Positions 551 to 14,295 of a DNA stretch of 44,886 bases are shown piece after piece. The DNA lies in the NCBI GenBank assembly GCA_021769885.1, contig JAETSA010000022.1, positions 1-44,886 on the forward strand, read 5' to 3'. The position numbers and the translations under genes are program-made. Below the pieces are notes generated by a model. It made no database searches, was not told the DNA's origin, and saw only the letters and a program-made list of their open reading frames with translations. Origin of the DNA: Bacillota bacterium. Its GTDB lineage: Bacteria; Bacillota; Clostridia; Oscillospirales; Acutalibacteraceae. Numbering within the stretch: the first letter of the stretch is position 1; each line of letters opens with the position of its first letter.

Positions 551-919
551 CTATAGGGTATTTCCATATATCAATATAGGCTTTTTCCCTATATCAATAT
601 GTGGCTTTTCCGTTATGCCTATTTCATCGAACAAATAATCGTTTCCACCTACGTTTTTCAAATATCCTTTATTTATTAAATCCTTGACTGCTGCGTGATA
701 TGCATCTGGTTTTAAGCCCCATTTTGCACAGTCGGCACAACTCAATTCAAAAGTATGGTATGGTTGATTTTTCGCAAAATATATCCATAATTTGAATGCA
801 CTTGTCTTTAGTTCTAACATAGCTTTTTGCAATGCTTTTATATTTATTTTGGCATATAAATCTTTATCGCTACAGTTCTCTTTTTTGATTGTTACAATCT
901 TTTGATTTGGATAACTCAT
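551..919 (-). CDS. Winged-helix-like small protein
   Basis: A 122-residue protein with no signal peptide or membrane segment. Residues ~35-85 (…SAFKLWIYFAKN… to …DLINKGYL) have the pattern of a winged helix: a helix, a CADCAKWGLKPDAY stretch that could be the recognition region, and an 'L[IV]xKGYL' wing start. This resembles replication-initiator or regulator winged-helix domains of plasmids and phages. It begins directly after the stop of the HNH gene (TAA then ATG), so the two are cotranscribed and probably coupled. A DNA-binding role is likely. The target is unknown, and it could be a regulator of the HNH gene or a replication or segregation protein of the element. Confidence 0.6.
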   Translation of the reverse strand: MSYPNQKIVTIKKENCSDKDLYAKINIKALQKAMLELKTSAFKLWIYFAKNQPYHTFELSCADCAKWGLKPDAYHAAVKDLINKGYLKNVGGNDYLFDEIGITEKPHIDIGKKPILIYGNTL

Positions 920-1804
920 TTATATAACTTCCTCTACAGATGACTTATTTCTTTCTTCTGCACTTTCTCCAAAAATACAGTTCAGGGGAATATCTTTTCC
1001 TTTGTCGTATGCCTGTTTTCCTTTTTTATCAATGAACATAAAGAATTCAAAATTCTTGTTTGGTTCATAATCAGGATGCGGTATTTTGAATAGTTCTCTT
1101 TCATTATCTTTTCTAATTTGTCTTACCATCTGCCAATACTCCTTCTTTCTGTTATCGTTCCATAGTTTGTGTAACATTTGATGTTCCGTATATTCCTTAT
1201 CATCTTCATAATACTTTATATTCGGATTAGTCCACAATAAACATTCTGGGGTGTTTTTTATCTTTCCTTTTCTTCCAATATAACTGTGATGCACTTCAAA
1301 ATCTGTCTTTTCAAGAAATTCCGCTATACTGTTGTACTTTTCCATTTCTCTAATATGGCAAAACGCTGCTGCAATTAGTCTGTGCAAATATTCGTCATAT
1401 TCTTCTCCGTCTTTCTTTAATAACAGTTGAATATATCCATCAGATTTTCGTGGATTATTTATAAGTTCATCCCCTGTTGTAATATTAAACAGCCTTCCTT
1501 TATTTGTCCCAAAATACCTAAAGTCATAACCAGTTAATGGTATAAACATTTCACCTTTAAGCGGACGAATGTTATCCCATACAATATCCTTATTGATTGT
1601 TGGATGTGATGATATATACTTTTTTAGGTCTGCAATGCAAACCAATGGTTTATCATCATCGGATTTTTTACTTCTAATACTTTTCCTTTGATACAATCTA
1701 TATATGTAATGGTAATCTTTATTCGTGATTTTTACCGCATCAGGTATGGTAACATAATCATTTCCTTTTGTTTTTTCTTCATTGTTAAATTTATTGTAGT
1801 TCAT
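920..1804 (-). CDS. HNH endonuclease (NUMOD4/homing-type)
   Basis: A 294-residue protein. The N-terminal ~75 residues look like a helix-turn-helix (…VTIPDAVKITNKDYHYIYRL…). Residues ~85-125 resemble a NUMOD4 motif (Y..RYFGTNKGRLFN). These are followed by YIQLLLKK and HRLIAAAFC, and an HNH core with EVHHSYIGRKGKIKNTPECL near residues 180-200. This is the layout of phage and intron-type HNH homing endonucleases, which nick or cut DNA. There is no RuvC domain, so it is not IscB/Cas9-like. The start at 1804 is preferred over one 20 codons upstream because GGAG lies 8 bases before it. It follows a structured leader RNA with a terminator (1856-2051), suggesting controlled read-through, and is immediately followed by the wHTH gene. 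It may promote spread of the element or damage rivals. Both are inference. Confidence 0.75.
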   Translation of the reverse strand: MNYNKFNNEEKTKGNDYVTIPDAVKITNKDYHYIYRLYQRKSIRSKKSDDDKPLVCIADLKKYISSHPTINKDIVWDNIRPLKGEMFIPLTGYDFRYFGTNKGRLFNITTGDELINNPRKSDGYIQLLLKKDGEEYDEYLHRLIAAAFCHIREMEKYNSIAEFLEKTDFEVHHSYIGRKGKIKNTPECLLWTNPNIKYYEDDKEYTEHQMLHKLWNDNRKKEYWQMVRQIRKDNERELFKIPHPDYEPNKNFEFFMFIDKKGKQAYDKGKDIPLNCIFGESAEERNKSSVEEVI

Positions 1805-1855
1805 AAATAACTCCGTTTCTCCCAGTTGTCCTGTCCGGGGCAGGTTAATTATAAT

Positions 1856-1916
1856 ATAAAACAAAAACGGCTATACACCTTTAGAGAGTATCAAACTCAA
1901 TCAGTGTATAGCCGTT
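1856..1916 (-). terminator. Intrinsic terminator upstream of HNH gene
   Basis: Thirteen perfect pairs between 1904-1916 and 1866-1878, read on the minus strand, with an inner hairpin in the 25-base loop, are followed by TTTTTGTTTTA. It ends the structured RNA and would prevent most transcription from reaching the HNH gene unless antitermination occurs. Confidence 0.75.
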
Positions 1917-2051
1917 AATTTAAGGCAATTTATAGGCATTTAACATCACTCGTGCCAGTTCAAGTATAGATGTTAAAAGTATTATCGGAAAAATATAGCT
2001 GGGCTATGGTCACGCAGTTTCCTAATCTGCGTATCGACCAATATTTAATTT
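1856..2051 (-). ncRNA. Structured leader/small RNA with own promoter and terminator
   Basis: A consensus promoter predicts transcription from ~2051 and an intrinsic terminator ends it at ~1856, giving a ~195-nt RNA. Helices visible on the minus strand are: TGGTC/GACCA stacked on ACGCAG/CTGCGT near the 5' end, a small ATAGC/GCTAT hairpin, a 9-bp TTTAACATC/GATGTTAAA stem, and a terminator stem of 13 bp (AACGGCTATACAC at its 5' arm) enclosing a GAGT/ACTC hairpin. The 5' ATAGCC (in CCATAGCCCAG) can also pair with GGCTAT of the terminator's 5' arm, so a two-state attenuator is possible. The HNH start codon is only ~52 nt beyond the terminator. I recognise no known family. It may be a cis-regulatory leader of the HNH operon or a free small RNA. 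Confidence 0.55.
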
Positions 2052-2057
2052 TGCTAT

Positions 2058-2086
2058 ATTATACCGCACTGATTATTGTTTGTCAA
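2058..2086 (-). promoter_or_regulatory. Consensus sigma-A promoter of the structured RNA
   Basis: TTGACA at 2086-2081 and TATAAT at 2063-2058 on the minus strand are separated by exactly 17 bases. Both hexamers match the vegetative consensus perfectly, which predicts strong transcription starting near 2051. Confidence 0.85.
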
Positions 2087-2145
2087 GTAAAATATTGTAC
2101 AAATTGCTGTAAAATTCAAGGTTATTAGTTATACAATTTGTGCAA
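2086..2145 (-). terminator. Terminator after riboswitch-controlled mini-ORF
   Basis: Inverted repeat TTGCACAAATTG (2145-2134) and CAATTTGTACAA (2106-2095) on the minus strand, 12 bp with one mismatch-type pair, is followed by TATTTTACTT. It closes the transcription unit that begins with the upstream SAM-I riboswitch, isolating it from the next promoter. Confidence 0.55.
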
Positions 2146-2190
2146 CTATAGTAAATGATTTACTACAGCTTCCAGTATTCGTAAACACAA

Positions 2191-2226
2191 TCACGGCGGT
2201 TTATAGATTCTTTTTGCTGTTCTCAT
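2191..2226 (-). CDS. 11-residue mini-ORF behind a SAM-I riboswitch
   Basis: ATG at 2226 preceded by AAAGGA nine bases upstream opens an 11-codon frame reading MRTAKRIYKPP then TGA. It is the only recognisable frame between the riboswitch (ending 2247) and the terminator at 2145-2095. Just after KP, a +1 frame reads RDCVYEYWKL then TAG, so a one-base deletion would yield a ~20-residue basic/aromatic peptide. It may be an intact micropeptide, a leader peptide, or the frameshifted remnant of a small gene. The strong ribosome-binding site favours translation. Function unknown. Confidence 0.35.
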   Translation of the reverse strand: MRTAKRIYKPP

Positions 2227-2246
2227 AGGCTTAATTCCTTTCATTT

Positions 2247-2394
2247 ACCCATAAAGAGAACGCAAAAATGCACCCATAGTTTTCTATAGGTGCAAACACT
2301 ATGTTTTACCCATAGAATCAGCCATTAGCACCTTACTTTTCAGCAGGTTGCCGGACGGTCAAAGGGGCTGTCCCTCTCGTCACTCTTTATAGGT
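2247..2394 (-). promoter_or_regulatory. SAM-I-class riboswitch with terminator (copy 1)
   Basis: The minus strand shows the S-box core: AAAGAG, GAGGGACAGCCCC, TGAC, GGCAACC, AAGGTGCTAA. P2 pairs GACG (2381-2378) with CGTC (2357-2354). The P2 loop CAGC (2370-2367) pairs with GCTG (2322-2319) as the pseudoknot. P1 pairs ACCTATA (2394-2388) with TATGGGT (2314-2308). CTATGGGT (2315-2308) can instead pair with ACCTATAG (2291-2284) as antiterminator, and the terminator pairs 2293-2284 with 2279-2270 followed by TTTTT. Ligand contacts known from SAM-I (CAACC and GGTG) are kept. SAM would stabilise P1 and cause termination. No P4 hairpin lies inside P1, unlike classical SAM-I. No strong own promoter was seen, so it may be read from the upstream XRE operon. 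Confidence 0.8.
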
Positions 2395-2428
2395 ATTATT
2401 TAATTATTATTTTCTTATATAGATATTG

Positions 2429-2602
2429 CTACTTTGCTATATCTCTTAAATATTTTTGTCTTGCCTTCTGATTTGGTAAGCTCTGAATTATTTTAAGGTG
2501 TTCCTCCATATTTTCAATAGGTGGATTTTTGGGTTGTATAGCCTTTACTATGGCATACCCAGCCAATACAAGCAACATCAATATAAAAAGCAGTAAACTC
2601 AT
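2429..2602 (-). CDS. Small membrane protein, 57 aa
   Basis: One N-terminal membrane segment (residues ~2-22, SLLLFILMLLVLAGYAIV) followed by a charged cytoplasmic tail containing LPNQKARQKYLRDIAK. The start at 2602 is chosen because AAGGGA lies nine bases upstream; a longer frame to 2647 lacks a ribosome-binding site. It follows another 57-residue membrane peptide by 10 bases in the operon begun by the XRE regulator. The two are similar in plan (membrane segment plus basic tail ending in a K/R-rich helix) and may be diverged duplicates. No function recognised. Confidence 0.6.
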   Translation of the reverse strand: MSLLLFILMLLVLAGYAIVKAIQPKNPPIENMEEHLKIIQSLPNQKARQKYLRDIAK

Positions 2603-2612
2603 ATAATCCCTT

Positions 2613-2786
2613 CTATCTGTATTTACGCAGAATTTTTCTGCATTCACTTTTTGATTTTCCTATCATTTCATTTGTCATATTTTCAAGCTGACTGTTGCTT
2701 TTAGGTTTCGCCTCTGTTTTACAGAAGTTTACAAATCTATATGAACCATAACCAGCAAGCACCCCTAGAACAATTAAAAGAGGCAT
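2613..2786 (-). CDS. Small membrane protein, 57 aa
   Basis: A 57-codon gene beginning MPLLIVLGVLAGYGSYRF, with AGGAG ten bases before the ATG at 2786. One membrane segment covers residues ~2-20, followed by a polar tail ending in ECRKILRKYR. It sits 19 bases after the XRE repressor gene and 10 bases before the next small membrane gene, so all three are one transcription unit. The tail resembles that of its neighbour (KYLRD versus RKILRKY). A toxin-like or membrane-sensor role would be guesswork. Confidence 0.55.
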   Translation of the reverse strand: MPLLIVLGVLAGYGSYRFVNFCKTEAKPKSNSQLENMTNEMIGKSKSECRKILRKYR

Positions 2787-2805
2787 ATTCTCACGCTCCT
2801 ATATA

Positions 2806-3021
2806 TTAAATAGTATCGCCGGTGTCATTCATTGTTAAAGTAGCTTTGTATGTACAGTCTAAAGCTACGGCTATTGCTATCAATTCTTTTTCTGTAAAGT
2901 TATCACGATTCATTTTGTTTGAAAGATTTTGCCTTGATTGCCCTAATCTTTCGGCAAGTTCTGAAAGTGTTATATTTCGGCGTTTCAGCATTATTTTTAT
3001 CTTTTCGCCCATAGTTAGCAT
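2806..3021 (-). CDS. XRE-family helix-turn-helix repressor, 71 aa
   Basis: A compact Cro/CI-type DNA-binding domain: GEKIKIMLKRRNITLSEL then AERLGQSRQNLSNKMNRDNF forms the HTH at residues ~18-40, with ELIAIAVALDC as helix 5. The ribosome-binding site AAAGGAGG lies 8-9 bases before ATG. It is transcribed divergently from the J-domain/recombinase genes. Both divergent promoters carry an ACT-N4-AGT inverted repeat between -35 and -10, so autoregulation and repression of the recombinase operon are likely. It probably acts as the switch controlling excision or resolution genes of the element. Confidence 0.8.
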   Translation of the reverse strand: MLTMGEKIKIMLKRRNITLSELAERLGQSRQNLSNKMNRDNFTEKELIAIAVALDCTYKATLTMNDTGDTI

Positions 3022-3050
3022 TTTATCACCCCTCCTTTTAGCATATCTAT

Positions 3051-3079
3051 ATTGTAAACTATAAAGTTTTGTTTGTCAA
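3051..3079 (-). promoter_or_regulatory. Promoter of the XRE operon with operator-like repeat
   Basis: Minus-strand TTGACA (3079-3074), 17-base spacer, TACAAT (3056-3051). The spacer holds AACTATAAAGTT (3057-3068), an ACT-N4-AGT inverted repeat of the same kind as in the divergent promoter. Confidence 0.75.
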
Positions 3080-3120
3080 TTATTACTTGAAAAAATAAAT
3101 CATAAAATTGCAAATATCTG

Positions 3121-3149
3121 TTGACAAACGACACTAATTAGTGTACAAT
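3121..3149 (+). promoter_or_regulatory. Promoter of J-domain/recombinase genes with palindromic operator
   Basis: TTGACA (3121-3126), 17-base spacer, TACAAT (3144-3149). A perfect 14-bp palindrome ACACTAATTAGTGT (3131-3144) fills the spacer and overlaps the -10. It is a likely binding site of the adjacent XRE repressor. Confidence 0.8.
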
Positions 3150-3179
3150 GGAATTGTAATAAATAAGGAGGTAACCACT

Positions 3180-3671
3180 ATGAAATGGTTTTCAAACCCA
3201 CAAACACTTGAACAACTTAAAAAGCAGTACAAAAAGTTAGCAATGCAGCATCATCCCGATATTGGCGGCTCGGTCACTAATATGCAGGAAATCAACGGCG
3301 AGTATGACAATCTATTTGAATTGCTAAAGAACACACACCAGACCGCCGATGGTAAAACCTATAAAGCAAAAACCGAAACAACAGAAACCGCGGCAGAATT
3401 CAAAGACATTATAAATCGCTTGATTAACCTTCAAGGAATAACCATTGAGGTTTGCGGCTCTTGGCTCTGGATAACCGGAGATACATACCAGCATAGGGAA
3501 ATACTAAAAGAATTAAAATTCAGATTTAGCAAATCAAAAACAGCTTGGTACTATCACAATGAAGGTTATCGTAAGAACCATAGCAAAATATACACGCTTG
3601 ATGAAATCCGTGATTTGTACGGCAGCGAAACAGTAATGAATAAACCGTCATTACAGTTACAAGTTATCTAA
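3180..3671 (+). CDS. J-domain (DnaJ-like) protein of mobile element
   Basis: A 163-residue protein. Residues ~9-50 form a J domain with the diagnostic HPD motif (QHHPDIGG), which in the family stimulates the ATPase of DnaK. The rest (ITIEVCGSWLWITGD … HREILKELKFRFSKSKTAWYYH) is a domain seen with short J-proteins on phages and conjugative elements of Bacillota. There is no G/F region or zinc-finger domain, so it is not a general chaperone. Start at 3180 has AAGGAGG eight bases upstream; the promoter -10 lies inside the longer frame, which rules that out. A hairpin terminator follows, then the recombinase gene. It probably recruits host DnaK to an element process; which one is unknown. Confidence 0.8.
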   Translation: MKWFSNPQTLEQLKKQYKKLAMQHHPDIGGSVTNMQEINGEYDNLFELLKNTHQTADGKTYKAKTETTETAAEFKDIINRLINLQGITIEVCGSWLWITGDTYQHREILKELKFRFSKSKTAWYYHNEGYRKNHSKIYTLDEIRDLYGSETVMNKPSLQLQVI

Positions 3672-3676
3672 TCTTG

Positions 3677-3707
3677 AGGCGGCTGCAATATGCCGCCTTA
3701 ACTTTTA
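3677..3707 (+). terminator. Hairpin terminator after J-domain gene
   Basis: AGGCGGC (3677-3683) pairs with GCCGCCT (3692-3698) around an 8-base loop, followed by TAACTTTT. It should reduce transcription into the recombinase gene. Confidence 0.6.
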
Positions 3708-3715
3708 GTAAAACA

Positions 3716-3795
3716 GTATCAAAAGAAACGTTTTTGAAAAAGTATCAAAAGTTATCACAAATCATACCAAAATCAAAAACTACACCGTATCAAAA
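3716..3795 (+). repeat. Three GTATCAAAA repeats before the recombinase
   Basis: GTATCAAAA occurs at 3716-3724, 3742-3750 and 3787-3795 in direct orientation, within the 160 bases upstream of the serine recombinase start. Such arrays next to resolvase genes often form the res or operator region. The spacing (26 and 45) is not a recognised arrangement, so this is a candidate only. Confidence 0.4.
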
Positions 3796-3832
3796 CAGAC
3801 GGTCGATAGATTTAATACAGGAGGATAATAAG

Positions 3833-4519
3833 ATGGCAGAATACGGATATTGCAGAATCAGCACCCAAAAGCAAAGTATTGAAAGGCAAATCAGAAATAT
3901 ACGCAGTCACTACCCTAAAGCGGTAATTTACCAAGAGATATACACCGGCACGAAAACGGACGGACGAAAGAAATGGGAACAATTATGCCGGACTGTTAAA
4001 AAAGGTGACACAATAATTTTTGATTCAGTATCACGAATGAGCAGAAATGCAACTGAAGGATTTGCAACCTATCAAAAACTATTTGATGCCGGTATTGAAC
4101 TTGTATTTTTGAAAGAGCAGCATATCAATACCGCTGTATACAAAAAAGCCCTCAATAATCATATAACGATGACCGGAACAAAAACCGATATAATACTAAA
4201 AGCTATCAATGAATATTTGATGGAGCTTGCAAAGGAACAAATCATTATTGCATTTCAACAAGCTGAAAAGGAAGTTACCGACTTGCACCAGAGAACAAAA
4301 GAAGGAATTGAAACAGCACGCCTCAATGGTAAACAAATCGGACAGCGCCCAGGGGCTAAACTTACAACAAAGAAAAGTATTGCAGCCAAAGCCGATATTA
4401 TGAAATATTCAAAAGACTTTAACGGCACTTTGAACGACCTTGAATGTATGCGAATGATAGGCATTGCCCGTAATACTTATTACAAGGATAAGAAGGAATT
4501 GCTGGAGGGTAATTACTAA
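3833..4519 (+). CDS. Small serine recombinase (resolvase/invertase family)
   Basis: A 228-residue protein with the resolvase catalytic domain at the N terminus: YGYCRIS places the nucleophile at Ser10 after Arg8, and FDSVSRMSRN matches the second conserved arginine block. A long helix (…LAKEQIIIAFQQAEKEV…) and a C-terminal HTH (…LNDLECMRMIGIARNTYYKDKK) complete the usual small serine recombinase plan. GGAGG lies nine bases before the ATG at 3833. In Tn7-relatives of the Tn5053/Tn402 group a serine resolvase (TniR) resolves cointegrates. Here it could do the same, or act on the 60-bp repeats. The upstream GTATCAAAA repeats are candidate sites. Confidence 0.88.
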   Translation: MAEYGYCRISTQKQSIERQIRNIRSHYPKAVIYQEIYTGTKTDGRKKWEQLCRTVKKGDTIIFDSVSRMSRNATEGFATYQKLFDAGIELVFLKEQHINTAVYKKALNNHITMTGTKTDIILKAINEYLMELAKEQIIIAFQQAEKEVTDLHQRTKEGIETARLNGKQIGQRPGAKLTTKKSIAAKADIMKYSKDFNGTLNDLECMRMIGIARNTYYKDKKELLEGNY

Positions 4520-4528
4520 ATATGGGGA

Positions 4529-4560
4529 GCGGTTTACATTTGTAAGCCGTTCTATTTTTG
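4529..4560 (+). terminator. Terminator after serine recombinase
   Basis: CGGTTTACA and TGTAAGCCG form a 9-bp stem with a two-base loop (4530-4549), followed by TTCTATTTTTG. Confidence 0.65.
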
Positions 4561-4597
4561 TCTATCCGCTTATATGTGTTACTTTTCACTCTGACCA

Positions 4598-4879
4598 TTA
4601 TATAACGTCCCGATAGTCAATTTTAACAAGTGGGTCATTGCCGATTTTATTTGCTGCTTGAAAAGCAATCCGACCTACAGTGCCGACATAATTTATGGTA
4701 TTGTCTCGATTCACAGCCATAATATTTGCCGGTGTTCTTGCTGTTGGCTTGATGCCATCGCAAAATGTAAATCCCTCATTTTCTGCATCCTGCAAAAATT
4801 GTTTTCCAATGGAAGTCGTTGCAAGATACACATAAATTCTGCCTTTATTGGTAGATAGCAAATCTCGGATTTTTGGCAT
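4598..4879 (-). CDS. 93-aa protein of unknown function under a SAM-I riboswitch
   Basis: A soluble 93-residue protein beginning MPKIRDLLSTNKGRIYVYL and containing FCDGIKPTARTP and YVGTVGRIAFQAANKIGND. It has no signal peptide, membrane segment or recognised motif. The start at 4879 has GGGAGG seven bases before ATG; longer frames run into the riboswitch. It is the only gene downstream of the SAM-I-class riboswitch at 5062-4903, and the next gene to the left is convergent, so its expression should rise when S-adenosylmethionine is low. Such riboswitches normally control methionine, cysteine or SAM genes. An uncharacterised small protein on a transposon is unusual. A role in SAM sensing or methylation-dependent control of the element is only a hypothesis. 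Confidence 0.65.
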   Translation of the reverse strand: MPKIRDLLSTNKGRIYVYLATTSIGKQFLQDAENEGFTFCDGIKPTARTPANIMAVNRDNTINYVGTVGRIAFQAANKIGNDPLVKIDYRDVI

Positions 4880-4902
4880 TAAAAAACCTCCCTTCTGGTT
4901 AC

Positions 4903-5062
4903 TACCATAAAGAGAGGGCATAAACAAAAACACACCCATCGTTACCGGTGGATGTGACTGTAATATCAATATTTCACACCATCGGTCAAGCATTACCACC
5001 TTGCCTATCGGTAGGTTGGTGTGCGGTCATTGGGCTTGCTCCCTCACGCACTCTTTATGGTA
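4903..5062 (-). promoter_or_regulatory. SAM-I-class riboswitch with terminator (copy 2)
   Basis: The same architecture as 2394-2247 but with compensating changes. P2 is GTGCG (5051-5047) with CGCAC (5025-5021). The pseudoknot is CAAGC (5038-5034) with GCTTG (4991-4987). P3 swaps GGC/GCC for ACC/GGT. ACCAT and ATGGT close P1. The terminator pairs 4956-4946 with 4941-4931 around a GTAA loop (10 of 11 pairs) and ends in TTTTT (4930-4926). CCGATGGTGTGA can pair with TCACATCCACCGG as antiterminator. AAGAG, CAACC and GGTG, which contact SAM in known structures, are present. It lies 23 bases from the start of the 93-aa gene and begins at the predicted transcription start. Confidence 0.82.
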
Positions 5063-5067
5063 TTTTT

Positions 5068-5096
5068 ATGATAACACTATATTTTAGTTTTGTCAA
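5068..5096 (-). promoter_or_regulatory. Promoter of SAM-I riboswitch copy 2
   Basis: Minus-strand TTGACA (5096-5091), 17-base spacer, TATCAT (5073-5068). The expected start near 5061 coincides with the 5' end of the riboswitch aptamer. Confidence 0.8.
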
Positions 5097-5184
5097 GATA
5101 CATTTTATCTCAATACCTATCTTGTTATAAAGCAGTATTCATTTGAGCGTTTGCTAAACAACAATAAATAATATTGAAAGAAAA

Positions 5185-6510
5185 TTATACCTTGCTTTCA
5201 TATTCGATATGACAACTATTTTCGTTAAAAGAAATTTTAACTGCATATTCATCAAGCATAGCAAATATATATCCTAACATTACATCTGAAATTTGCATTT
5301 CTTTTGCACAATCCGACATATCTGAAATGTCAAGTGAATATTTTCCCAATTTTCCATAATCATAATCATATTGTCCGGACACCGATTTTAGCGACTCGAA
5401 TTTTTGCATTATTGCCTCAAGCTGATTATCAACTACGATAAACTTACTTGCATTTTCACCATATGGTACATATTCATCGACAGTATCAGGAGTAAATCCT
5501 AACAGTAATTCTGATATATCTTTATAGCTATAGAAAAACCGTTTGTTTTTAAAATCACTACCACTTAACATTTTGGCTATCTTTCGATAAACCGCACCTT
5601 GACTAACCGTACCGTTTTTATTTAGACTACTGTCTATCCATTCGCAATCATCAGATAACAGAGGTATTCCATCATAATACCATTTTCCTTTACTACCTGT
5701 TAAATCTTCTTTAGTTGCTGTGATTGCAGCTTCATAAGTTGTTTTAGCTGCGCTAATTGATATATTGGGTTTTGTTGTTTCTGATAATTCTGATTCATCT
5801 GCATTATTAGATATATCTACTCCATTGAGTATCATACGAGCATTATTGATTATAATATATTGACCATCCTGGACAGATATATATGTTTGTTTATCAAACA
5901 GTGGAGAGCAATACTCTGGTTCATTCTCTGGACAATCATTGCATATTTGGTATGCTCCCCAAATACCAGAGATATTATTCAGTTCTGTATTATATTTATC
6001 TGTTATAGATGTTATTTTATAATCCCCTTCAGGCAAATCTGTGCCAACAAGAAATACACCATATTTTTTCCAATTGCTTGTATCTACTTCCTTTGCTGAT
6101 ACAAGTATAGCAGCAGAGGATAGGAATATATATTGTCCTTTATTTACAGACACTTTACGCATTGTTCTATAATCTGACCAAGAAAAATTATTTGGATTAT
6201 CAGATACATCATATAACGCTTCTGCTCCATATATTGAAAAAATATAATAATCTCCTGGCTCGAAATCAGAACCACATCTGTATGTACCATCAGTTAGATA
6301 ATTATCAAACATCTTATAATCTAAAAAGCCATAACTTATTTCTTGGTTTGTTGGATAATTATCGCTTTGTTTAGCACTGTTTGATTCTTTCTCTGTTTTT
6401 TTGTCAGATGTGCATCCGTAAAGAGAAAATAATAGAAAAATTGTTAATGCTAAAGAAAGAATTCGAGTTACATAACTTGTTTTAATATGATTTTCAAAAT
6501 AACGTGTCAT
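5185..6510 (-). CDS. Lipoprotein with repeated GxYxxGxDxxxGDY modules
   Basis: A 441-residue protein with a lipoprotein signal (SLALTIFLLFSLYGC, lipobox LYGC, Cys near residue 32). Two related beta-rich modules follow: one with GTYRCGSDFEPGDYYIF and KGQYIFLSSA, another with GVFLVGTDLPEGDYKI and DGQYIIINNA. These resemble the 'VGxDIPAGxY' modules of Bacillota surface lipoproteins. The C-terminal ~170 residues (after residue 270) are a separate domain. The start at 6510 has AAGGAG nine bases upstream; a 22-codon extension lacks this. It follows a second lipoprotein in the same operon. It should be anchored outside the membrane. Ligand unknown. Confidence 0.7.
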   Translation of the reverse strand: MTRYFENHIKTSYVTRILSLALTIFLLFSLYGCTSDKKTEKESNSAKQSDNYPTNQEISYGFLDYKMFDNYLTDGTYRCGSDFEPGDYYIFSIYGAEALYDVSDNPNNFSWSDYRTMRKVSVNKGQYIFLSSAAILVSAKEVDTSNWKKYGVFLVGTDLPEGDYKITSITDKYNTELNNISGIWGAYQICNDCPENEPEYCSPLFDKQTYISVQDGQYIIINNARMILNGVDISNNADESELSETTKPNISISAAKTTYEAAITATKEDLTGSKGKWYYDGIPLLSDDCEWIDSSLNKNGTVSQGAVYRKIAKMLSGSDFKNKRFFYSYKDISELLLGFTPDTVDEYVPYGENASKFIVVDNQLEAIMQKFESLKSVSGQYDYDYGKLGKYSLDISDMSDCAKEMQISDVMLGYIFAMLDEYAVKISFNENSCHIEYESKV

Positions 6511-6529
6511 TATAATTACTCCTTGATTC

Positions 6530-7390
6530 TTAAAATTCAAAATATTCTTCCGTATAATAATCGAAGCGTTCAGCATTTACAGGAATATAAAAATCCAAAT
6601 TATATTTTTTACCTGCAACTATATCCTCGTAGTAGATTTCGTTTGTATCTACGATTGTTCCATCAGCATCATAAAATATAAAATGCATCATCATATCATA
6701 GTCATATTCAGTATTATTTTTTATCTTTATGCGATATGTAACATCATCTACGTAGTCACATTCTAAATCATCACCCAGTTGTTTATGTAAATCTTCTTCG
6801 ACTAACTTATAAGCAGAATATCTTTCAGATTCCTTGTTTGCATTATTGTAGTAATTTGTTTTGTAATCCACATTATCTGCAAGTAAACCATAATTATCTG
6901 TAAGAGTTTGCATTATTTGAAATCTTTTAGAATGTCCTTCATAGTATTTTAATTGTTTATTACCGTTAGATTCTGTAAGTGACTGTTTTTCAAGTTCAAC
7001 TGCGTTGATATAATCAATTGCGAGTTTTCGGAGTTCTGAATCATAAAATTCAGCATCCTTAAATTTACCGATTAGTTCAAGCTCAATTGCAGTACATTTT
7101 TCAATATCGTCAGTTTTTTCTGATACTTCATAACGTTTCATTATTGATTTGCTCATAGCATCTAAAAAAGCATAATCTGATTTTTCGTTCATACCCTTTT
7201 CTTTCGTGCATTGTGCAAGTAATTCCTTGCTATCCTCGTATTCAATATCAGTAAAACATTCTATAGCTTTATCCCAATCCCCATTATTCATTGCTTCCTT
7301 TCCTGAATTGTATTTATCTTCTTGGTTTGAACAACCAGATAAAATTAGAATTGCAATAATACATATCAACATCGTATATATCTTTTTCAC
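6530..7390 (-). CDS. Lipoprotein with TPR-like N-terminal region
   Basis: A 286-residue protein with lipoprotein signal MKKIYTMLICIIAILILSGC (lipobox LSGC, Cys20). Residues ~27-62 (YNSGKEAMNNGDWDKAIECF … YEDSKELLAQC) read like a tetratricopeptide repeat. The C-terminal 85 residues (YRIKIKNNTEYDYDMMMHFIFYDADGTIVD…) look like an FxLYD-type extracellular beta-sandwich. GTG start at 7390 with GGAGG nine bases upstream. It lies 19 bases before the 441-aa lipoprotein gene and 42 bases after a small membrane protein gene, so all three form one operon divergent from an XRE regulator. Function unknown; a cell-surface role is clear from the signal. Confidence 0.72.
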   Translation of the reverse strand: MKKIYTMLICIIAILILSGCSNQEDKYNSGKEAMNNGDWDKAIECFTDIEYEDSKELLAQCTKEKGMNEKSDYAFLDAMSKSIMKRYEVSEKTDDIEKCTAIELELIGKFKDAEFYDSELRKLAIDYINAVELEKQSLTESNGNKQLKYYEGHSKRFQIMQTLTDNYGLLADNVDYKTNYYNNANKESERYSAYKLVEEDLHKQLGDDLECDYVDDVTYRIKIKNNTEYDYDMMMHFIFYDADGTIVDTNEIYYEDIVAGKKYNLDFYIPVNAERFDYYTEEYFEF

Positions 7391-7432
7391 TTTTTAATCC
7401 TCCATTTTTAAGAAATTTAAGGGTATAGCAAA

Positions 7433-7633
7433 TTATTCGTTCTTTTTCAAAGCAAAAATTATCAAAGCGGTAATACCACCAGCAACAACGGCAATTCCCG
7501 CACCTACTTGATATGTAATCATCTCATATCCACCGGTTGGAGACGGAATCTTAAAAACAAAGTTTATGGATAATAAGAAAAATACAATGCTTACCAATAG
7601 AATAATTGTAATTTTAATAATGTTTTTCTTCAT
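7433..7633 (-). CDS. Small two-segment membrane protein, 66 aa
   Basis: Two hydrophobic segments (residues ~7-27 and ~42-62) joined by a short outward or inward loop PSPTGGYEMITYQVG, with basic ends MKKN and KKNE. First gene of the lipoprotein operon, divergently transcribed from the XRE regulator at 7817. AAAGG lies upstream of ATG. No family recognised. Confidence 0.6.
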   Translation of the reverse strand: MKKNIIKITIILLVSIVFFLLSINFVFKIPSPTGGYEMITYQVGAGIAVVAGGITALIIFALKKNE

Positions 7634-7689
7634 ACGGGTATCATACCTTTCTGTCTTTTATCTCTGTAATAGGAATTTGTTAATGATAG

Positions 7690-7807
7690 GTACACCTCTT
7701 TTTTTATTATAGCACTAACAGCAGAGAATTTCCACTGCTTTATAAATATTTGTTATCCAACAGTCAACTAATAGCATATAAAATATAACTGTTAGTGGAA
7801 AAGAGGT
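7690..7807. promoter_or_regulatory. Divergent regulatory region with long inverted repeat
   Basis: CACTAACAG (7713-7721) is mirrored by CTGTTAGTG (7789-7797), and outside these CACCTCTTTT (7693-7702) is mirrored by AAAAGAGGTG (7798-7807). The nested symmetry lies between the divergent membrane/lipoprotein operon and the XRE gene, so it is a likely operator for that regulator. The distal half overlaps the XRE gene's ribosome-binding site. Confidence 0.5.
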
Positions 7808-7816
7808 GCCAAAGAA

Positions 7817-8107
7817 GTGAATTTTGGAGAGAAATTGAAAATGTTAAGGACAGGACAAAATCTAACACAACAACAGTTAGCTACGAGGTTAGGCGTTGCA
7901 AAATCTGTAGTGTCTTATTATGAATCTGGAGACCGATTCCCCTCATATGATGTGCTTGTAAAAATAGCTTACACTTTCCATACAACAACTGATTATCTAT
8001 TAGACATACAACGCCAAAGGGTAATTGATGTTTCGGATTTAAGCGAAGATGATATAGCTGTTGTAACAACTGTTATAGATGCACTAAAACGCAAAAACAA
8101 TGGTTAG
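7817..8107 (+). CDS. XRE-family transcriptional regulator, 96 aa
   Basis: N-terminal Cro/CI HTH: LKMLRTGQNLTQQQLATRLG then VAKSVVSYYESGDRFPSYDVLVKIA, followed by FHTTTDYLLDIQ, the common end of this domain. The short C-terminal tail (VSDLSEDDIAVVTTVIDALKRK) is typical of XRE regulators in Clostridia mobile elements. GTG start at 7817 with AGAGGTG ten bases upstream. It is divergent from the lipoprotein operon across a region with nested inverted repeats and probably controls both directions. Confidence 0.85.
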   Translation: MNFGEKLKMLRTGQNLTQQQLATRLGVAKSVVSYYESGDRFPSYDVLVKIAYTFHTTTDYLLDIQRQRVIDVSDLSEDDIAVVTTVIDALKRKNNG

Positions 8108-8163
8108 AAGAACTCTTGCTGATTTGTGGCGAGAGTTCTTTTTTTTACAGGAGGATTTTCACA

Positions 8164-8489
8164 ATGATAATTGCCGAAAAATACACCGTAGTAAAAAAGG
8201 GGATATTTACCGCATTGTAAATTACGATGTTGCGGTTTGCCCTCATTGCTATTCTCTGCTAAAAGTAAGAGACAGCCGTAAACGGAAAGTTAAAGATTCC
8301 TCCGGCACAGAATATATATTTCAATTAAGACGGTTATACTGCCCTATATGTGAGCAAATACATATGGAAATACCTGACTGCATTGAACCTCAAAAGCATT
8401 ATTTCAAGCCAACTATAGAAAACACACTGTCTAATAGAATAAATTACTGCACAGCGGACAACTCTACAATACGCAGATGGCAAAAATAA
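8164..8489 (+). CDS. DUF6431-like protein requiring a -1 frameshift
   Basis: An ATG at 8164 preceded by CAGGAGG starts a frame reading MIIAEKYTVVKK that would stop at 8218. The slippery heptamer A AAA AAG (8193-8199) in that frame, followed by GGG, allows a -1 shift into GDIYRIVNYDVAVCPHC and on to the stop at 8489, giving ~108 residues. The downstream frame has CPHC and CPIC zinc-binding pairs with a RKRKVKD stretch between them, like DUF6431 proteins of Bacillota mobile elements. The only other start for it (ATG at 8100) encodes an unlike N terminus and overlaps the XRE gene. Either programmed frameshifting or a one-base loss explains this. Putative nucleic-acid-binding role. Confidence 0.6.
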
Positions 8490-8557
8490 CACACCCGTTT
8501 TGCCTTTTGTTTCCGTATTTCCTTATGTAAAATATTTCGGAGACTGGAGGCAAGCCA

Positions 8558-9028
8558 ATGAAGAAAAAATCAATTTATATCTCCATTATTGTTATTCTGC
8601 TACTTTTGCTTATCGGTGCTGCTTGGTGTTTCCTGCATAATCAATCTGTAGATAAGCCATCATTACCCACTGACTCAAACGCTGTTGAGTATGAGGGCGA
8701 TAAGCCTACAAATAGATTGCCTAACGGACAAAAAGGAATTGCTATTCCCGGATTTGATACCCTTGTGTTTTCTGCAAATCAAAGAGTCAATTTCTTCAAC
8801 CCCGACAGCAACGATTGCTTATTTTTAATGACACTTTATATTGATGATAAACCGCTTTGGAAATCCGGCTACTGTAAGCCGGGAACAGGTTACTATGATA
8901 TAGAACTATCCGAACCACTAAAAGCAGGAGAATATTCTGCCTATTTGAAAGTGCAATGTTTCAAAGAAGATGGCACAGTATTAAATGGGGCAAAAGTAGA
9001 GTTTGATATTACAGTACAGGAGGCTTAA
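8558..9028 (+). CDS. Membrane-anchored extracellular protein, 156 aa
   Basis: An N-terminal anchor (residues 6-26, IYISIIVILLLLLIGAAWCF) is followed by a Ser/Pro/Asp linker and an extracellular beta domain (residues ~58-156: GIAIPGFDTLVFSANQ … GYYDIELSEPLKAGEYSAYLKVQC … VEFDITV). GGAGG lies eight bases before ATG. It is separated by only 3 bases from the secreted 150-aa gene and shares with it a beta-sandwich-like composition and the 'AGxYxAxLxV' pattern, suggesting a matched surface pair. Function unknown. Confidence 0.65.
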   Translation: MKKKSIYISIIVILLLLLIGAAWCFLHNQSVDKPSLPTDSNAVEYEGDKPTNRLPNGQKGIAIPGFDTLVFSANQRVNFFNPDSNDCLFLMTLYIDDKPLWKSGYCKPGTGYYDIELSEPLKAGEYSAYLKVQCFKEDGTVLNGAKVEFDITVQEA

Positions 9029-9507: not shown

Positions 9508-9538
9508 CACCGTTGCCGTGATTGGTAACGGTGTTTTT
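9508..9538 (+). terminator. Terminator between surface genes and tniQ
   Basis: CACCGTT … AACGGTG with an inner GCC/GGT-type extension (9508-9533) and TTTTT. The T-run contains the stop codon of the convergent tniQ gene. Confidence 0.75.
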
Positions 9539-10886
9539 ATTTGCCCTCTATAATCTTGATTATCGCATCAGCAGTTTTTCTATCTGTGTGTTTAGGCAAA
9601 TATGGTATTACCCTGTCGATATTCTTCTTTTTTACGCCGCTGATTTTACGCATATCTGACCAATAGAACGGTGCGCCGCCTCCTTCTGTTTTGAGCTTAT
9701 CAAATGCCCATATTAGCCGCCTTGCCCAGCATTCCGCATATGATTCGCCGTACTTATCCATAATCGCCTTACACTTTGGTAGTATTTCAAGCCTATGCCC
9801 CGGCAAATTTAATTCACGATATATCAGTTTTTCTGATACTTTTTCGGGTCTGCCTGTATCACTTGCCGCACCAATATAAATATCGTGTGCTAATTGCTCT
9901 AATATCAGTGCAATTTTTTCATCGTATGCCGACAAATCAATCGACTCTCTATTCTTGATATAGTGTGACCGCTGCTCTTGGTTAATTTGCCGGTTCGTCA
10001 AATTCGGAGCAGTCAGCTCCTCAACTGTCATATTCAAGAAAAATGCAATTTGACATATGACTGAAAAATCAAATCTATCCTGTAATAACACTCGCTGTAC
10101 CTGCGACATACTTGCTATGCTGCCAATACCGATATTTTTATAGTAAAGCTGCATATCATCAACAAAACGCTTTGTATATCGTGATTTGCCTGATTGCTTC
10201 ATATACTTTGTTTTACTCATAGCGTGATACAGCACAGCACTAATCGGAATATCGTTTTCAAGGTTAATTGGTGAATCAAATACCGCCGCCATATATTCAC
10301 AAAATGCAACTTGCAGCATATTATCTACATATTTCGGCTCTTGTATTTCAACTGTTGTTTCAGCAGAATTCAAAGTAAATGTTTGCTCACTTTTCGCCGT
10401 TACATCAGAATTAACAAGTAAACATTTATGCTTTGTGCAAATGCTCATATTCCGTATTTGGTGTTTCCTATGCCAATACGCCTCCCCGTGATTTTTTCTA
10501 TCTTCTTGAACACACAGAGGGCAATATTTTAGCTGACTATCCGCCTGTGTTCTCGGTAATATGGCGAATAGATGGTGAGCATCGCAGAAATCATAACCGA
10601 TATGATATAAAGCATTTTTCTTTTGTTGCAGCGGAATAAATCTTCCATACTGTGGGTACATCGTATGTTTTGTTATCATTTCATCCATCGCAAATAATCC
10701 TTGTATCAATTTTTCTGTATCAGGGTTCAAATGACCGATAAACTCTTTACTTGGATTATTGCAACGGTTATATAAAAGTTCCCTAAAAGCCATTGCATTA
10801 GTAATACAACCAGTGTGTATATAATAGCGGCAAAACCAGCTATACACTAATTCATCCGGGTATATCTCTGGCAGATATGCAATCAT
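9537..10886 (-). CDS. tniQ: TniQ/TnsD-type target-selector protein
   Basis: A 449-residue TniQ-family protein. It opens with MIAYLPEIYPDELVYSWFCRYY, the usual 'P.PDEL.YSxxxRY' start. A zinc-binding cluster CPLC (Cys122, Cys125) with HRKH (His139, His142) and C..H (Cys150, His153) follows. At ~450 residues it is closer to TnsD-type site-specific selectors than to short CRISPR-linked TniQ. In the family it reads a chromosomal attachment site and recruits TnsC. The element sits at the 3' end of ppdK, so conserved ppdK codons are the predicted site. ATGA overlap with tnsC. Confidence 0.9.
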   Translation of the reverse strand: MIAYLPEIYPDELVYSWFCRYYIHTGCITNAMAFRELLYNRCNNPSKEFIGHLNPDTEKLIQGLFAMDEMITKHTMYPQYGRFIPLQQKKNALYHIGYDFCDAHHLFAILPRTQADSQLKYCPLCVQEDRKNHGEAYWHRKHQIRNMSICTKHKCLLVNSDVTAKSEQTFTLNSAETTVEIQEPKYVDNMLQVAFCEYMAAVFDSPINLENDIPISAVLYHAMSKTKYMKQSGKSRYTKRFVDDMQLYYKNIGIGSIASMSQVQRVLLQDRFDFSVICQIAFFLNMTVEELTAPNLTNRQINQEQRSHYIKNRESIDLSAYDEKIALILEQLAHDIYIGAASDTGRPEKVSEKLIYRELNLPGHRLEILPKCKAIMDKYGESYAECWARRLIWAFDKLKTEGGGAPFYWSDMRKISGVKKKNIDRVIPYLPKHTDRKTADAIIKIIEGK

Positions 10887-12127
10887 AAGCGTACCTCCTC
10901 AACAGAAAAATGCTTACGCAGCAGAGGTACAATATCTACATTGTCTGTTTTTGCTTTCTTTGCGATTTCAACAATAGAAACACCGTTAATAATATTGATT
11001 TGTATATCTTCACTCTTTGCAATAGGTTTCCTTTTACTCGACTTTGTTGTTTTGGACTTTGCATCTGTTGTGTGGATATAACTGTGCAATAGCGTTAATC
11101 GCTGTTTATATGCCATATTCAGCGTTTCAATATTTAATATCTCTTTACCCGTCAATATTGCTATTTCCTGTGCATCGTGTATCAGAGAGATAACCACTGA
11201 AATAACACCGGCGGAATGCTCATAAAGCCATTTGATGATTGCAGGACTTATCTCTGTTTTATGTGTGACGTACTGATAATTAAACACGGTTTCGCAGAGG
11301 GATTCAAAACATTCATCATAAGATAATGAATTATACTGCAATCCTACAGAACGCCTTGCAAGCTGCATAGCTTGCTCAAAAAAGATTGTACATTCAGGTG
11401 TACCCACCATACATATACTAATGCCACTATTGTTAATTAGCTGTGTGAGCATACCAACAAGATTTTTGCCATTCTTTGAGTTGACAACATTCTGTATTTC
11501 ATCAACAATTAAAATTCCAATATGGTTTAATGCAATGGAACTGACAAGCCCGATAAGCATATCCGTTGTGGCGGTTCTTGATTTGATACAGTAATCATAA
11601 TAGTTAGTTTCAAGTGTTTCATCTACTTTACGCAAAATCTCCAATAACAGACCTTTTACAGAGGAATCAAACGGACATTGAACCACAAGGCACGGAATGA
11701 CTTTTGCGTATGGTTTTTCAATCTCAATTATACAATTCTCCGATATAAGGGTAATGGCTCTGCTTATGGCACTTGATTTGCCTATACCGCTGCAACCTAT
11801 TATTGTAAAGCTGTCCGAACCGCCAACAATGCCGTTATATTCTTCTCCAATAATTGCTTTGTGGTTTTTGTAATGCTGTTGTATAGCGGTCTTTGTGCCT
11901 TTTTTCTGCATTGAGTGGAGCAATGCCAAATACAATTTTGAATATATCTCTAATGACATTTGAGAGGGTATATAGAGCTTGTATAAATCAGATAATGCCA
12001 TTAAACGTGTAGGTGTATTCTCGTTGCGTATTCTATCTTCATAAGCAGGAATGACCGACAAGGCAGTGTATAGAGCTTCACCTGACTTCATTTCCGGCAT
12101 AGCAGACAAATAATCTTTATACATCAT
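10883..12127 (-). CDS. tnsC: TnsC-type AAA+ transposition regulator
   Basis: A 414-residue AAA+ ATPase. Walker A is GCSGIGKS (residues 111-118) and Walker B ILIVDE (Asp209, Glu210) is followed by IQN. TnsC proteins assemble on target DNA marked by TniQ and pass it to TnsB. The N-terminal ~95 residues (YLSAMPEMKSGEALYTAL…) match the TnsB-interaction region layout of this group. Its start overlaps the tnsB stop (TGATG) and its stop overlaps the tniQ start (ATGA), so production of the subunits is translationally coupled. Confidence 0.9.
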   Translation of the reverse strand: MMYKDYLSAMPEMKSGEALYTALSVIPAYEDRIRNENTPTRLMALSDLYKLYIPSQMSLEIYSKLYLALLHSMQKKGTKTAIQQHYKNHKAIIGEEYNGIVGGSDSFTIIGCSGIGKSSAISRAITLISENCIIEIEKPYAKVIPCLVVQCPFDSSVKGLLLEILRKVDETLETNYYDYCIKSRTATTDMLIGLVSSIALNHIGILIVDEIQNVVNSKNGKNLVGMLTQLINNSGISICMVGTPECTIFFEQAMQLARRSVGLQYNSLSYDECFESLCETVFNYQYVTHKTEISPAIIKWLYEHSAGVISVVISLIHDAQEIAILTGKEILNIETLNMAYKQRLTLLHSYIHTTDAKSKTTKSSKRKPIAKSEDIQINIINGVSIVEIAKKAKTDNVDIVPLLRKHFSVEEVRL

Positions 12128-13944
12128 TCAGCGCCTCCCATAATATCAATATGTTGTTTAGTTCGTTCTCTTTGCCTTGTTTCTCTTATGGATTTTATAT
12201 TTGCATCACCGACAGCGGCACTATTTGAAATAACCCTGATATGCTCTGCAAGGTCAATTTTAGCCTGTAGATTTTCACCATTAACCGATTGTATCAACTG
12301 TTTATTAGCTGATTGCATTTGCTGTACTTCTTCAAGAGATTTGCCGGTAAATCGGGATTCTATCAAAGTAAATTCCGTATATTTGCTGTTTTCTATAACC
12401 CATACAGAGGAAACGTTATCAGGATTAAAAGCAACTACAGCAGTACCGCCGTTCAAGTATTTTTCTGTGAATCCGTCACAGTGATAGCGCATTTTATTTA
12501 CCCTTAAACCGTGGCGGGAGAATGTTCCTTTTGTCCGTGGTAATAAGGTTAAAGCAATCTGTCTTTCATCAGTTTTTATTAAATTTGCAGCAGGTTGTTT
12601 TCTGTTCCAATTCCATATATGGCTTGCATATGGTTTCACCTTATCTGTAAACATTTTAGTTGTGTAAGGGAAATTATCTATTATCCGCTGTGAATTATAG
12701 TAAATAATGCAGTGCAACAGTATTTTTTCAAAATCTGCAATCGTCAAGCAAGCATCTTTTCTGTAATCGTGTGCGCCCCTCTCTTGAAAATCAGGTTCAA
12801 TAATACCTTTTCCTTTCAAATAAGGTTTGTAGGTATTTTGCAATAGGTCAAAAAACTTTTCTACTGCACCTTTTAACTCCGGTCTGTACGGAGGAAGGTT
12901 AATAATCGTAACGCCCAATTCTGCTATCTGTTCAAAGTTTTCTGATTTATACTCGCTGCCCATATCTGTTACAAGTAAGCCGGGAATAATACCGCTGCAA
13001 TTCCAATCATCTTGGTTTATATCAATTCCAAATCTCTTGCAGTGCTTTACTTTGTCAGCGGCTACATTCAACATTAGATTTCGGAGGCTGTAAACACCGC
13101 CCTCCCAACTTAAAGAATAACCACAGCACAAACCACTATAAGCATCAATGCAAGCGGTCAAAATGGGTCTGCCTATTATGTTTCCGCTTTCGTTTATAAG
13201 GTAAATATCGCATATAGTAGAATCCAACATTCCAACACCAACAGCAGGAGCGAATGCTTGTATGCCGTCACCTGTCAGAGGTCTGTTATTTCTCTGATAG
13301 TTTTTCAAGCCATCACGGGAAATATAATAGTTTTGCATTTTCCTATGCTTACGATAGAAATATCGGAATTGGTGTATTGTAGGGTATTTCTGCAACAATA
13401 CACCGTTACCATCACAATATTTTTCTTTAAGCATAAGTGTATATGCAGTTTGTAGGCTGTTACGGCTTTGATTATAAAAATACTTGTTTAATGCCCATCT
13501 CATATTCTTTTCAACTATTGTCAGCGGCTTTTCATAACTACATTTTTTCGGTGCAAGAACACTAATGTTTTGATAAACAAGATACAACCATAAGTATTGC
13601 TTTATCGTTTGTTTACTGATATTGAAATGCTGTGCCATATTTCTAATAGCATTGCAACGGGATTTATTATCTGTAATAAACGGCAATACACCGGCAATGG
13701 CTGTAAATCTTTTATATGCAATACAGCGGCTTTCATTGTCCAACTCGTCAATAGGGAAGGTGCAAATTCCGGTTATGTGCGATAAATCATTTATGCTACA
13801 TTCTGTGTATTCGGTCAATTCCGCTGTGTTTATCCACTGCGGTACAACTCTTTTTATACAATTTACAATGAGGACTTTGGTGGTTTCAATTTCAAGCACA
13901 CGGACAATATTATTATCTTTTTGCAATAACTTATTTTTCAGCAT
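12124..13944 (-). CDS. tnsB: TnsB-type DDE transposase
   Basis: A 606-residue RNase H-fold integrase-type transposase. An N-terminal HTH region (…NMAQHFNISKQTIKQYLWLY…) precedes the catalytic domain with Asp in GMLDST (~241), Asp in LVTDMGSEY (~327) and Glu in ELKGAVEKFFD (~362). A C-terminal beta-barrel (…RHGLRVNKMRYHCDGF…) follows. It joins the 3' transposon ends to target DNA. The start at 13944 overlaps the tnsA stop by 14 bases and has GGGGG ~12 bases upstream; the longer frame would lie deep inside tnsA. Length fits Tn7-like TnsB (600-700). Confidence 0.92.
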   Translation of the reverse strand: MLKNKLLQKDNNIVRVLEIETTKVLIVNCIKRVVPQWINTAELTEYTECSINDLSHITGICTFPIDELDNESRCIAYKRFTAIAGVLPFITDNKSRCNAIRNMAQHFNISKQTIKQYLWLYLVYQNISVLAPKKCSYEKPLTIVEKNMRWALNKYFYNQSRNSLQTAYTLMLKEKYCDGNGVLLQKYPTIHQFRYFYRKHRKMQNYYISRDGLKNYQRNNRPLTGDGIQAFAPAVGVGMLDSTICDIYLINESGNIIGRPILTACIDAYSGLCCGYSLSWEGGVYSLRNLMLNVAADKVKHCKRFGIDINQDDWNCSGIIPGLLVTDMGSEYKSENFEQIAELGVTIINLPPYRPELKGAVEKFFDLLQNTYKPYLKGKGIIEPDFQERGAHDYRKDACLTIADFEKILLHCIIYYNSQRIIDNFPYTTKMFTDKVKPYASHIWNWNRKQPAANLIKTDERQIALTLLPRTKGTFSRHGLRVNKMRYHCDGFTEKYLNGGTAVVAFNPDNVSSVWVIENSKYTEFTLIESRFTGKSLEEVQQMQSANKQLIQSVNGENLQAKIDLAEHIRVISNSAAVGDANIKSIRETRQRERTKQHIDIMGGAE

Positions 13945-14278
13945 CAATAACCAGCCCCCAATCATTAACACCACGATTCAGCCAATATGAGCGTGAAGCA
14001 TCCAAAAGTTTTACGGTCAGTGGTTTTAATAAGTGTCTGCGGAATACACATTCACGAACCAATAAATCACCATTTGATTTTGTGCAAAGAAAATCTGTGT
14101 TGTATTCCCCGATTTCTTCGCCGTCAAGTGGAATATTGCATTGTATTTCCGTTATATCATCATTACTTTGCAGACTATCCAAATAAGCAAGCTGTAAATC
14201 GTTGTAAGTTCTGCAAACCTCTTTTGATTTGCTGACAGATTTCTTTATACATCTGCCTTTGTAGTTTTTCTTAATCAT
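13931..14278 (-). CDS. tnsA: Short TnsA-like endonuclease
   Basis: A 115-residue protein matching only the nuclease half of TnsA (which is 273 residues in Tn7). Visible are the strand with the catalytic Asp (EIGEYNTDFLC), then GDLLVRECVFRRH in place of the usual '(Q/E)VK', and KLLDASRSYWLNRGVNDWGLVID. The catalytic Lys position reads Val or Cys, although nearby Arg residues might substitute. The C-terminal winged helix that contacts TnsC is missing. TnsA cuts the 5' ends so that transposition is cut-and-paste. A weakened TnsA would favour cointegrates. First gene of the tns operon; AAAGGTGG lies close before the ATG. Confidence 0.75.
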   Translation of the reverse strand: MIKKNYKGRCIKKSVSKSKEVCRTYNDLQLAYLDSLQSNDDITEIQCNIPLDGEEIGEYNTDFLCTKSNGDLLVRECVFRRHLLKPLTVKLLDASRSYWLNRGVNDWGLVIDAEK

Positions 14279-14295
14279 AGAATCCACCTTTCTGA

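Follow-up and report, generated by a model that had tools for sequence, protein, structure and literature searches.

The stretch of DNA analyzed here (the window, 44,886 nucleotides of an Acutalibacteraceae contig) carries a transposon, and the cargo of that transposon is a compact cassette in which an S-adenosylmethionine (SAM) riboswitch of the SAM-I class (S-box) precedes a single gene for a 93-amino-acid (aa) protein (Table 1). The class of the switch, proposed earlier in a sequence-only reading, was borne out by a search with all of Rfam 15 (cmscan), in which RF00162 matched at 5063..4976 on the minus strand with E values of 4.7e-10 (entire window searched) and 8.3e-12 (801 bases searched). 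As the match exceeds the curated gathering score, a chance motif was rejected. No SAM-IV or SAM-I/IV model was listed at this position; the listing omits a single overlapping match from that clan with a lower score. The other parts drawn in the sequence-only reading were recovered as well: the promoter, the pseudoknot CAAGC/GCTTG (present by eye), and an antiterminator and a GTAA-loop terminator that can form competing structures with P1, the duplex energies of the three being -9.5, -11.9, and -8.2 kcal/mol, respectively.

The aptamer fold, core letters, pseudoknot, and terminator/antiterminator platform are those of SAM-I switches (RF00162), for which OFF logic is expected. The window differs from that class in that the regulated gene belongs to an unnamed family and not to methionine or SAM metabolism, and it adds a hairpin at the ribosome-binding site that appears to compete for the aptamer 5' strand. 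We regard the RNA as a member of a known aptamer class with an apparently new platform variant and an uncharacterized regulon. The genome itself (2.32 Mb) holds three SAM-I switches in total, two within the window and one of 83.6 bits on another contig, which precedes an apparent MetK gene (by eye).

Table 1. Positions and properties of the cassette and of other features in the window
Feature	Position	Strand	Details
Promoter TTGACA-17-TATCAT	5068..5096	-	11/12 consensus positions
SAM-I aptamer (RF00162)	4976..5063	-	Full model 1-108, 54.9 bits vs gathering score 44.4
Aptamer 5' strand UACCAUAAAGAG	5051..5062	-	Complementary to post-terminator element; duplex -23.0 kcal/mol, shuffles -9.3
P1 3' strand, also antiterminator 5' side	4974..4985	-	Duplex with terminator 5' arm -9.5 vs P1 -8.2 kcal/mol
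Intrinsic terminator, GTAA loop, then TTTTTGTTT	4922..4957	-	Hairpin -12.9 kcal/mol
Post-terminator element CTCTTTATGGTA	4903..4914	-	Most in 5' arm of ribosome-site hairpin; complementary to aptamer 5' strand
Hairpin masking ribosome-binding site	4887..4917	-	-16.0 kcal/mol, z -2.9, p 0.015, 5/5 Shine-Dalgarno (SD) bases paired
Ribosome-binding site GGGAGG	4887..4892	-	Upstream of 93-aa open reading frame (ORF)
93-aa orphan gene	4598..4879	-	ORF; AlphaFold2 model, predicted local distance difference test (pLDDT) 94, predicted template modeling score (pTM) 0.84
Second SAM-I aptamer	2307..2395	-	56.0 bits
Conserved 11-codon ORF MRTAKRIYKPP	2191..2226	-	After second SAM-I switch; kept in window, L023, L024, L114
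Resolvase-type recombinase	3674..4519	+	Convergent with 93-aa gene; PF00239 8.5e-21
Tn7/Tn5053-like transposition genes (presumed type)	9537..14287	-	TniQ, TniB/AAA, Mu-type transposase, small 118-aa ORF

The 93-aa family and its SAM-I leaders

As the sequence-only reading held, a single orphan gene follows the switch, and its product fits no family of Pfam, NCBIfam, PHROGs, or PADLOC at a curated cutoff or a low E value. It is a member of an unnamed family found in Clostridia, transposons, and phages, present in 17 of 200 genomes of the same taxonomic family; samples drawn from the order and from the phylum had it in 12 of 345 and 2 of 348 genomes (the samples overlap, and each takes in the window's own genome). 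Further members lie on four genome contigs, 16 IMG/VR contigs, and one named phage (Ruminococcus phage NatCom_28274), while two queries found none in 72,556 plasmid records. Thirty-four other members are 27 to 94% identical to the window protein, and AlphaFold2 predicted a confident fold from the 35-member alignment. Foldseek returned no relative of this model in the PDB at E ≤ 0.001 (best E, 0.5) and mostly uncharacterized phage proteins in a viral library (best E, 0.012); a profile search of PDB sequences with the family yielded none up to an E value of 10. Dismissed as noise were weak matches to class A beta-lactamase models (E of 0.008 to 0.03, against a 600-bit cutoff), a phage protein model (E of 0.083), Cas5/JukA (E of 0.02 to 0.06, one member each), and scattered Pfam matches (one or two members each, best E of 0.004). 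Phage members occupy at least two parts of the family tree by supported branches, interspersed with bacterial ones, although the bootstrap had not settled. At L038 (genome G497, of the same genus as the window's genome) the gene is broken by an early stop, and the SAM-I aptamer still lies upstream.

The check proposed in the earlier reading, whether the RNA accompanies the protein, gave a supportive result: RF00162 was found at gathering score directly upstream of the gene in 46 of 50 distinct family places (cmscan). These comprise the window, 18 of 20 loci of one set (loci with two SAM-I matches counted once), L025, L026, and L027, 8 of 10 bacterial places, and all 16 places on viral contigs; the named phage is among the 46. 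A script located the start codon in 44 of the 46, at 153 to 194 nucleotides (nt) past the aptamer start, the other two being L030, where a start is visible on inspection, and the broken L038. Speaking against a strict association are L007 and L021, from one genome, which have no switch (cmscan to E 0.01) and each closely follow another gene; L039, a weak partial protein match without a switch; and L034, whose score is under the gathering threshold although inspection by eye reveals an S-box. Several viral places are near-identical, which leaves 42 distinct leaders, 32 of them less than 85% alike.

TTGACA at a 16- to 18-nt spacing from a TA...T box occurs in 37 of 46 family leaders, and the T-run follows a hairpin at least as stable as -8 kcal/mol in all 42 leaders where the script located one (46 tried). 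The letters that we take to contact SAM in SAM-I are retained in nearly every distinct aptamer (AGAG in J1/2, 41/42; CAACC, 42/42; AAGGTG, 42/42), with one alternative letter permitted in the first two patterns.

As background, 60 genomes of the same taxonomic family gave 59 SAM-I matches, in 50 of the 60 (about one per genome). In the reverse direction we inspected the 30 best and the 14 weakest of these matches, which lie above and below a middle group of 15 at 69.5 to 75.9 bits. All of the 30 best precede MetK (by eye, from the ORF start). Six of the 14 weakest belong to the 93-aa family, two are a switch before a tiny ORF (see below), and the remaining six precede MetK (two, also supported by tblastn), a second unnamed family (two, of 146 and 141 aa), a 256-aa ORF resembling N-formylglutamate amidohydrolase by eye, and a 116-aa ORF.

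A candidate second tier behind the terminator

The sequence-only reading overlooked the second SAM-I switch at 2395..2307, the distribution of the family, and a structure past the terminator. In the window, the terminator ends at 4931 and its U-run extends to 4922, and the ribosome site at 4892-4887 lies inside a separate hairpin, the 5' arm of which shows complementarity with the aptamer 5' strand. An element resembling GC.CTCTTTA.GG follows the U-run in most leaders. Across the 42 distinct leaders, the aptamer 5' strand paired with the 42-nt stretch that precedes the ribosome site at a mean of -18.5 kcal/mol, and the pairing surpassed dinucleotide shuffles at p ≤ 0.05 in 40 and at p ≤ 0.01 in 31. 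By contrast, 30 chromosomal SAM-I leaders of metK, controls from the same bacterial family, Rfam family, and genomes, averaged -10.9 kcal/mol, passed these levels in 4/30 and 1/30, and, taken together, are without the complementary element. The ribosome-site hairpin had a mean z of -2.96, with p ≤ 0.05 in 27 of 37 distinct regions.

When partners were permuted among the 32 leaders less than 85% alike, the own-partner mean beat all 5000 permutations, for the aptamer strand with the element and for the element with the ribosome site alike; the control pairing of aptamer strand with ribosome site had no effect (4006 of 5000 permutations were as good). In the unconstrained minimum free energy (MFE) fold of the window read-through leader, the antiterminator forms and 12 base pairs link the aptamer 5' strand to the element. 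Over the 32 leaders, the predicted exposure of the ribosome site averaged 0.45 in the free full leader, 0.16 when the aptamer was excluded from the fold (mimicking a held aptamer), and 0.71 when the element was removed, and exposure rose by >0.3 in 25 of the 32; this folding speaks to compatibility with two-tier switching, not to kinetics. The platform looks two-tiered, with the terminator first and then a ribosome-site hairpin that competes for the aptamer 5' strand.

We consider it probable, from these predicted structures, that the cassette is a portable one, built of a strong promoter, a SAM-I aptamer, a two-tier OFF platform, and one small gene. With SAM plentiful, P1 would hold, the terminator would form, and most transcripts would stop; upon leaky read-through, the bound aptamer would retain its 5' strand and leave the element CTCTTTATGGTA free to hide the ribosome-binding site. 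With SAM scarce, the P1 3' strand would form the antiterminator and polymerase would pass, after which the freed aptamer 5' strand would capture the element and the ribosome site would be exposed. Such a capture would dismantle the aptamer and thereby latch the message ON. Because both tiers would open without SAM, the small protein would be made when SAM runs low.

Control of both steps by one aptamer is likewise described for dual transcription/translation attenuation platforms (Barrick and Breaker 2007, PMC2258182), in which the ribosome site is placed within the terminator. The window arrangement does not fit the dual platform as described there: its terminator and ribosome-site hairpin are separate, and its second switch uses the aptamer 5' strand. 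According to a 2026 study (PMC13273304), RF00162 taken as one family shows no significant covariation between aptamer and platform.

Several observations weigh against a two-tier platform. A crude antiterminator test with fixed windows at -8 kcal/mol was passed by only 6 of 42 leaders, and the terminated-length window RNA folds with a z of only -1.4. Aptamer-strand pairing is missing from L036 and L048 (p of 0.86 and 0.48), 10 of the 37 hairpin regions miss p ≤ 0.05 (some because trimming cut the 5' arm where it held a T-run), the U-run contributes to the duplex energy of some leaders, and the measurement for one metK control (L085) fell within the gene owing to a wrongly chosen start. The permutation and shuffle statistics ignore the shared ancestry of the leaders. 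The exposure states were imposed by construction, with the free leader falling between them, and the MFE fold for the window's ON state leaves the final GG of the ribosome site in a weak 4-pair hairpin.

It is improbable, in our estimate, that this is an ordinary transcription-only SAM-I switch whose post-terminator element is an idle by-product of a conserved leader. Transcription attenuation is dominant in Firmicutes, according to PMC2258182; the element overlaps conserved aptamer letters, so that its complementarity could be inherited; and the own element ranks first for only 3 of 32 aptamer strands (in the better half for 24). Against this reading, the element is absent as a group from the metK leaders of the same aptamer class, own partners beat permuted ones on average, and diverged leaders keep the pairing of element and ribosome site, L048 among them despite its lost aptamer pairing.

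Phage, bacterial, and transposon surroundings

The earlier proposal of a dedicated transposon sensor was not upheld: many bacterial copies stand singly among ribosomal, metabolic, and other apparently chromosomal genes (by eye, not counted), others are found in phages, and L103, L106, L107, and L114 have prophage-like or element-like surroundings. Its proposed link to methylation survives as circumstantial evidence only, from one phage group in which the gene and that of a C5 DNA methyltransferase converge, with a second methyltransferase and sometimes MetK alongside. The C5 methyltransferase adjoins the family gene in L027, L049-L056, and the bacterial contig L033/L107, convergently where ORFs were called, with tail-to-tail overlaps of about 11 to 34 bases in L027, L049, L050, L052, L056, and L107. 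An N6/N4 methyltransferase is also present in L027, L049-L052, L054, and L056, and as a fragment in L055. A full MetK occurs in L049 and a 260-aa MetK-like ORF in L052, L054, and L056, that of L052 having only the N domain when scanned. The eight other viral loci (L041-L048) have no C5 or N6/N4 methyltransferase or MetK by tblastn, and close to several of them lies a sliding clamp or a shared large protein. MetK genes abound in IMG/VR contigs, with 553 confirmed stretches; among the best 80 (L122-L201), many of them short, the family was present in three, one being the L049 contig again, and phage MetK was rejected as a general partner.

Judging by the neighbor genes, in this one phage group only, the leading candidate role for the 93-aa protein, held with low confidence, is that of an effector tuning some SAM-dependent process, for example DNA methylation or restriction. 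A counter-restriction or defense effector, stepping in once SAM falls short of what methylation requires, would be compatible with the two-tier cassette; we think it rather unlikely. The methyltransferase and MetK neighbors argue for it, as does the presence of the family in phages, a transposon, and prophage-like contigs, whereas PADLOC over the 35 members matched two families, each by one member and neither credible (best E, 0.018), and many copies are solo chromosomal genes.

The tail-to-tail overlaps with the C5 methyltransferase could also mean that the output is the transcript itself, low SAM driving antisense RNA into the convergent gene (the phage DNA methyltransferase, or the resolvase in the window); an antisense S-box is known in Clostridium acetobutylicum. 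This is very unlikely, given the conservation of the protein and its confidently predicted fold, a ribosome-site hairpin that would be pointless without translation, and a C5 methyltransferase at only L033, and weakly L010, among the bacterial loci searched (flanks of about 1.5 kb for most). Also very unlikely is an aptamer for another ligand or a variant of SAM: the family aptamers do score 45 to 62 bits, below the 76 to 90 bits of the 30 best metK leaders, and the window aptamer has, by eye, an exchanged base pair next to the pocket, but two metK leaders score equally low (L089, 54.9 bits; L091, 37.6 bits), the SAM-contact motifs are kept, and no other clan model scores higher.

The transposon setting itself, noted in the earlier reading, stands. 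TniQ and TniB/AAA proteins were found in the window together with a DDE-type transposase of the Mu type, recognized by its C-terminal domain (PF06527, 1.2e-18; PF05621, 4e-13; PF09299, 4.2e-05; rve only at 0.089); the 118-aa ORF among them has no Pfam match. With the resolvase, these genes are shared with Tn7/Tn5053-like transposons, as one of which we take this element. An exact 60-base repeat joins window positions 1-60 and 14580-14639, no clear inverted ends were seen, and in L023 the sequence matching 14461-14639 continues directly into that matching window position 61; the repeat and this continuity therefore make the window start look like an assembly junction at an element boundary. L023 shares window positions 1-8783 at 95%. 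L024 and L025 keep the cassette and the resolvase side and do not share the stretch from about 5080-5105 to about 7480-7900. A conserved promoter-like TTGACA..TATAAT followed by hairpin-rich sequence at about 2090-1850 (minus strand), before a NUMOD4-like ORF at 920-1864, is kept in L023 and L114 and replaced by other sequence in L024.

The second SAM-I switch of the window has its own terminator-like hairpin before the 11-codon ORF, which an upstream in-frame ATG would extend to 16-17 codons in three of four elements (17 in the window). The consensus ..KR[IV]Y.PP-stop is kept across all four, the sequence past the stop diverging in L024, and the pattern occurs in 2 of 200 genomes of the same taxonomic family, the own genome included. 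Because Pro-Pro precedes the stop, the sequence suggests a ribosome-stalling peptide. In L017, another SAM-I switch (2505..2419, minus strand) lies before two reading frames, one of 9 codons and one for a membrane-like protein of 71 aa; the latter resembles, by eye, a 72-aa ORF at window positions 2429-2647.

The second unnamed family (141-146 aa) follows SAM-I leaders at 4/4 loci seen, L086, L119 (=L090), L120, and L121; two of these leaders were scored with Rfam, and those of L120 and L121 were recognized by a crude motif and by eye. A similar post-terminator element is present in all four. FSV.DGWGE.DG is shared by the L086 and L090 proteins, and no viral sequence is among the close relatives of the 146-aa protein.

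A putative SAM-I regulon beyond methionine metabolism

A literature search by title and abstract opening returned no report of the 93-aa family or of SAM-I switches in phages. It is tempting, if speculative and on balance unlikely, to imagine that phages, transposons, and hosts share a low-SAM alarm cassette, a latching two-tier switch that would replace methylation-based protection with a protein effector when SAM collapses during infection or starvation. The family would extend the SAM-I regulon outside methionine metabolism, and it places SAM-I switches in phages and a transposon. Its RNA is compact and testable, and in it a single aptamer strand appears to govern two decisions in sequence before dismantling the sensor. 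The protein family, well-folding and unannotated, comes with a predictable expression condition, low SAM, so that its role is directly testable.
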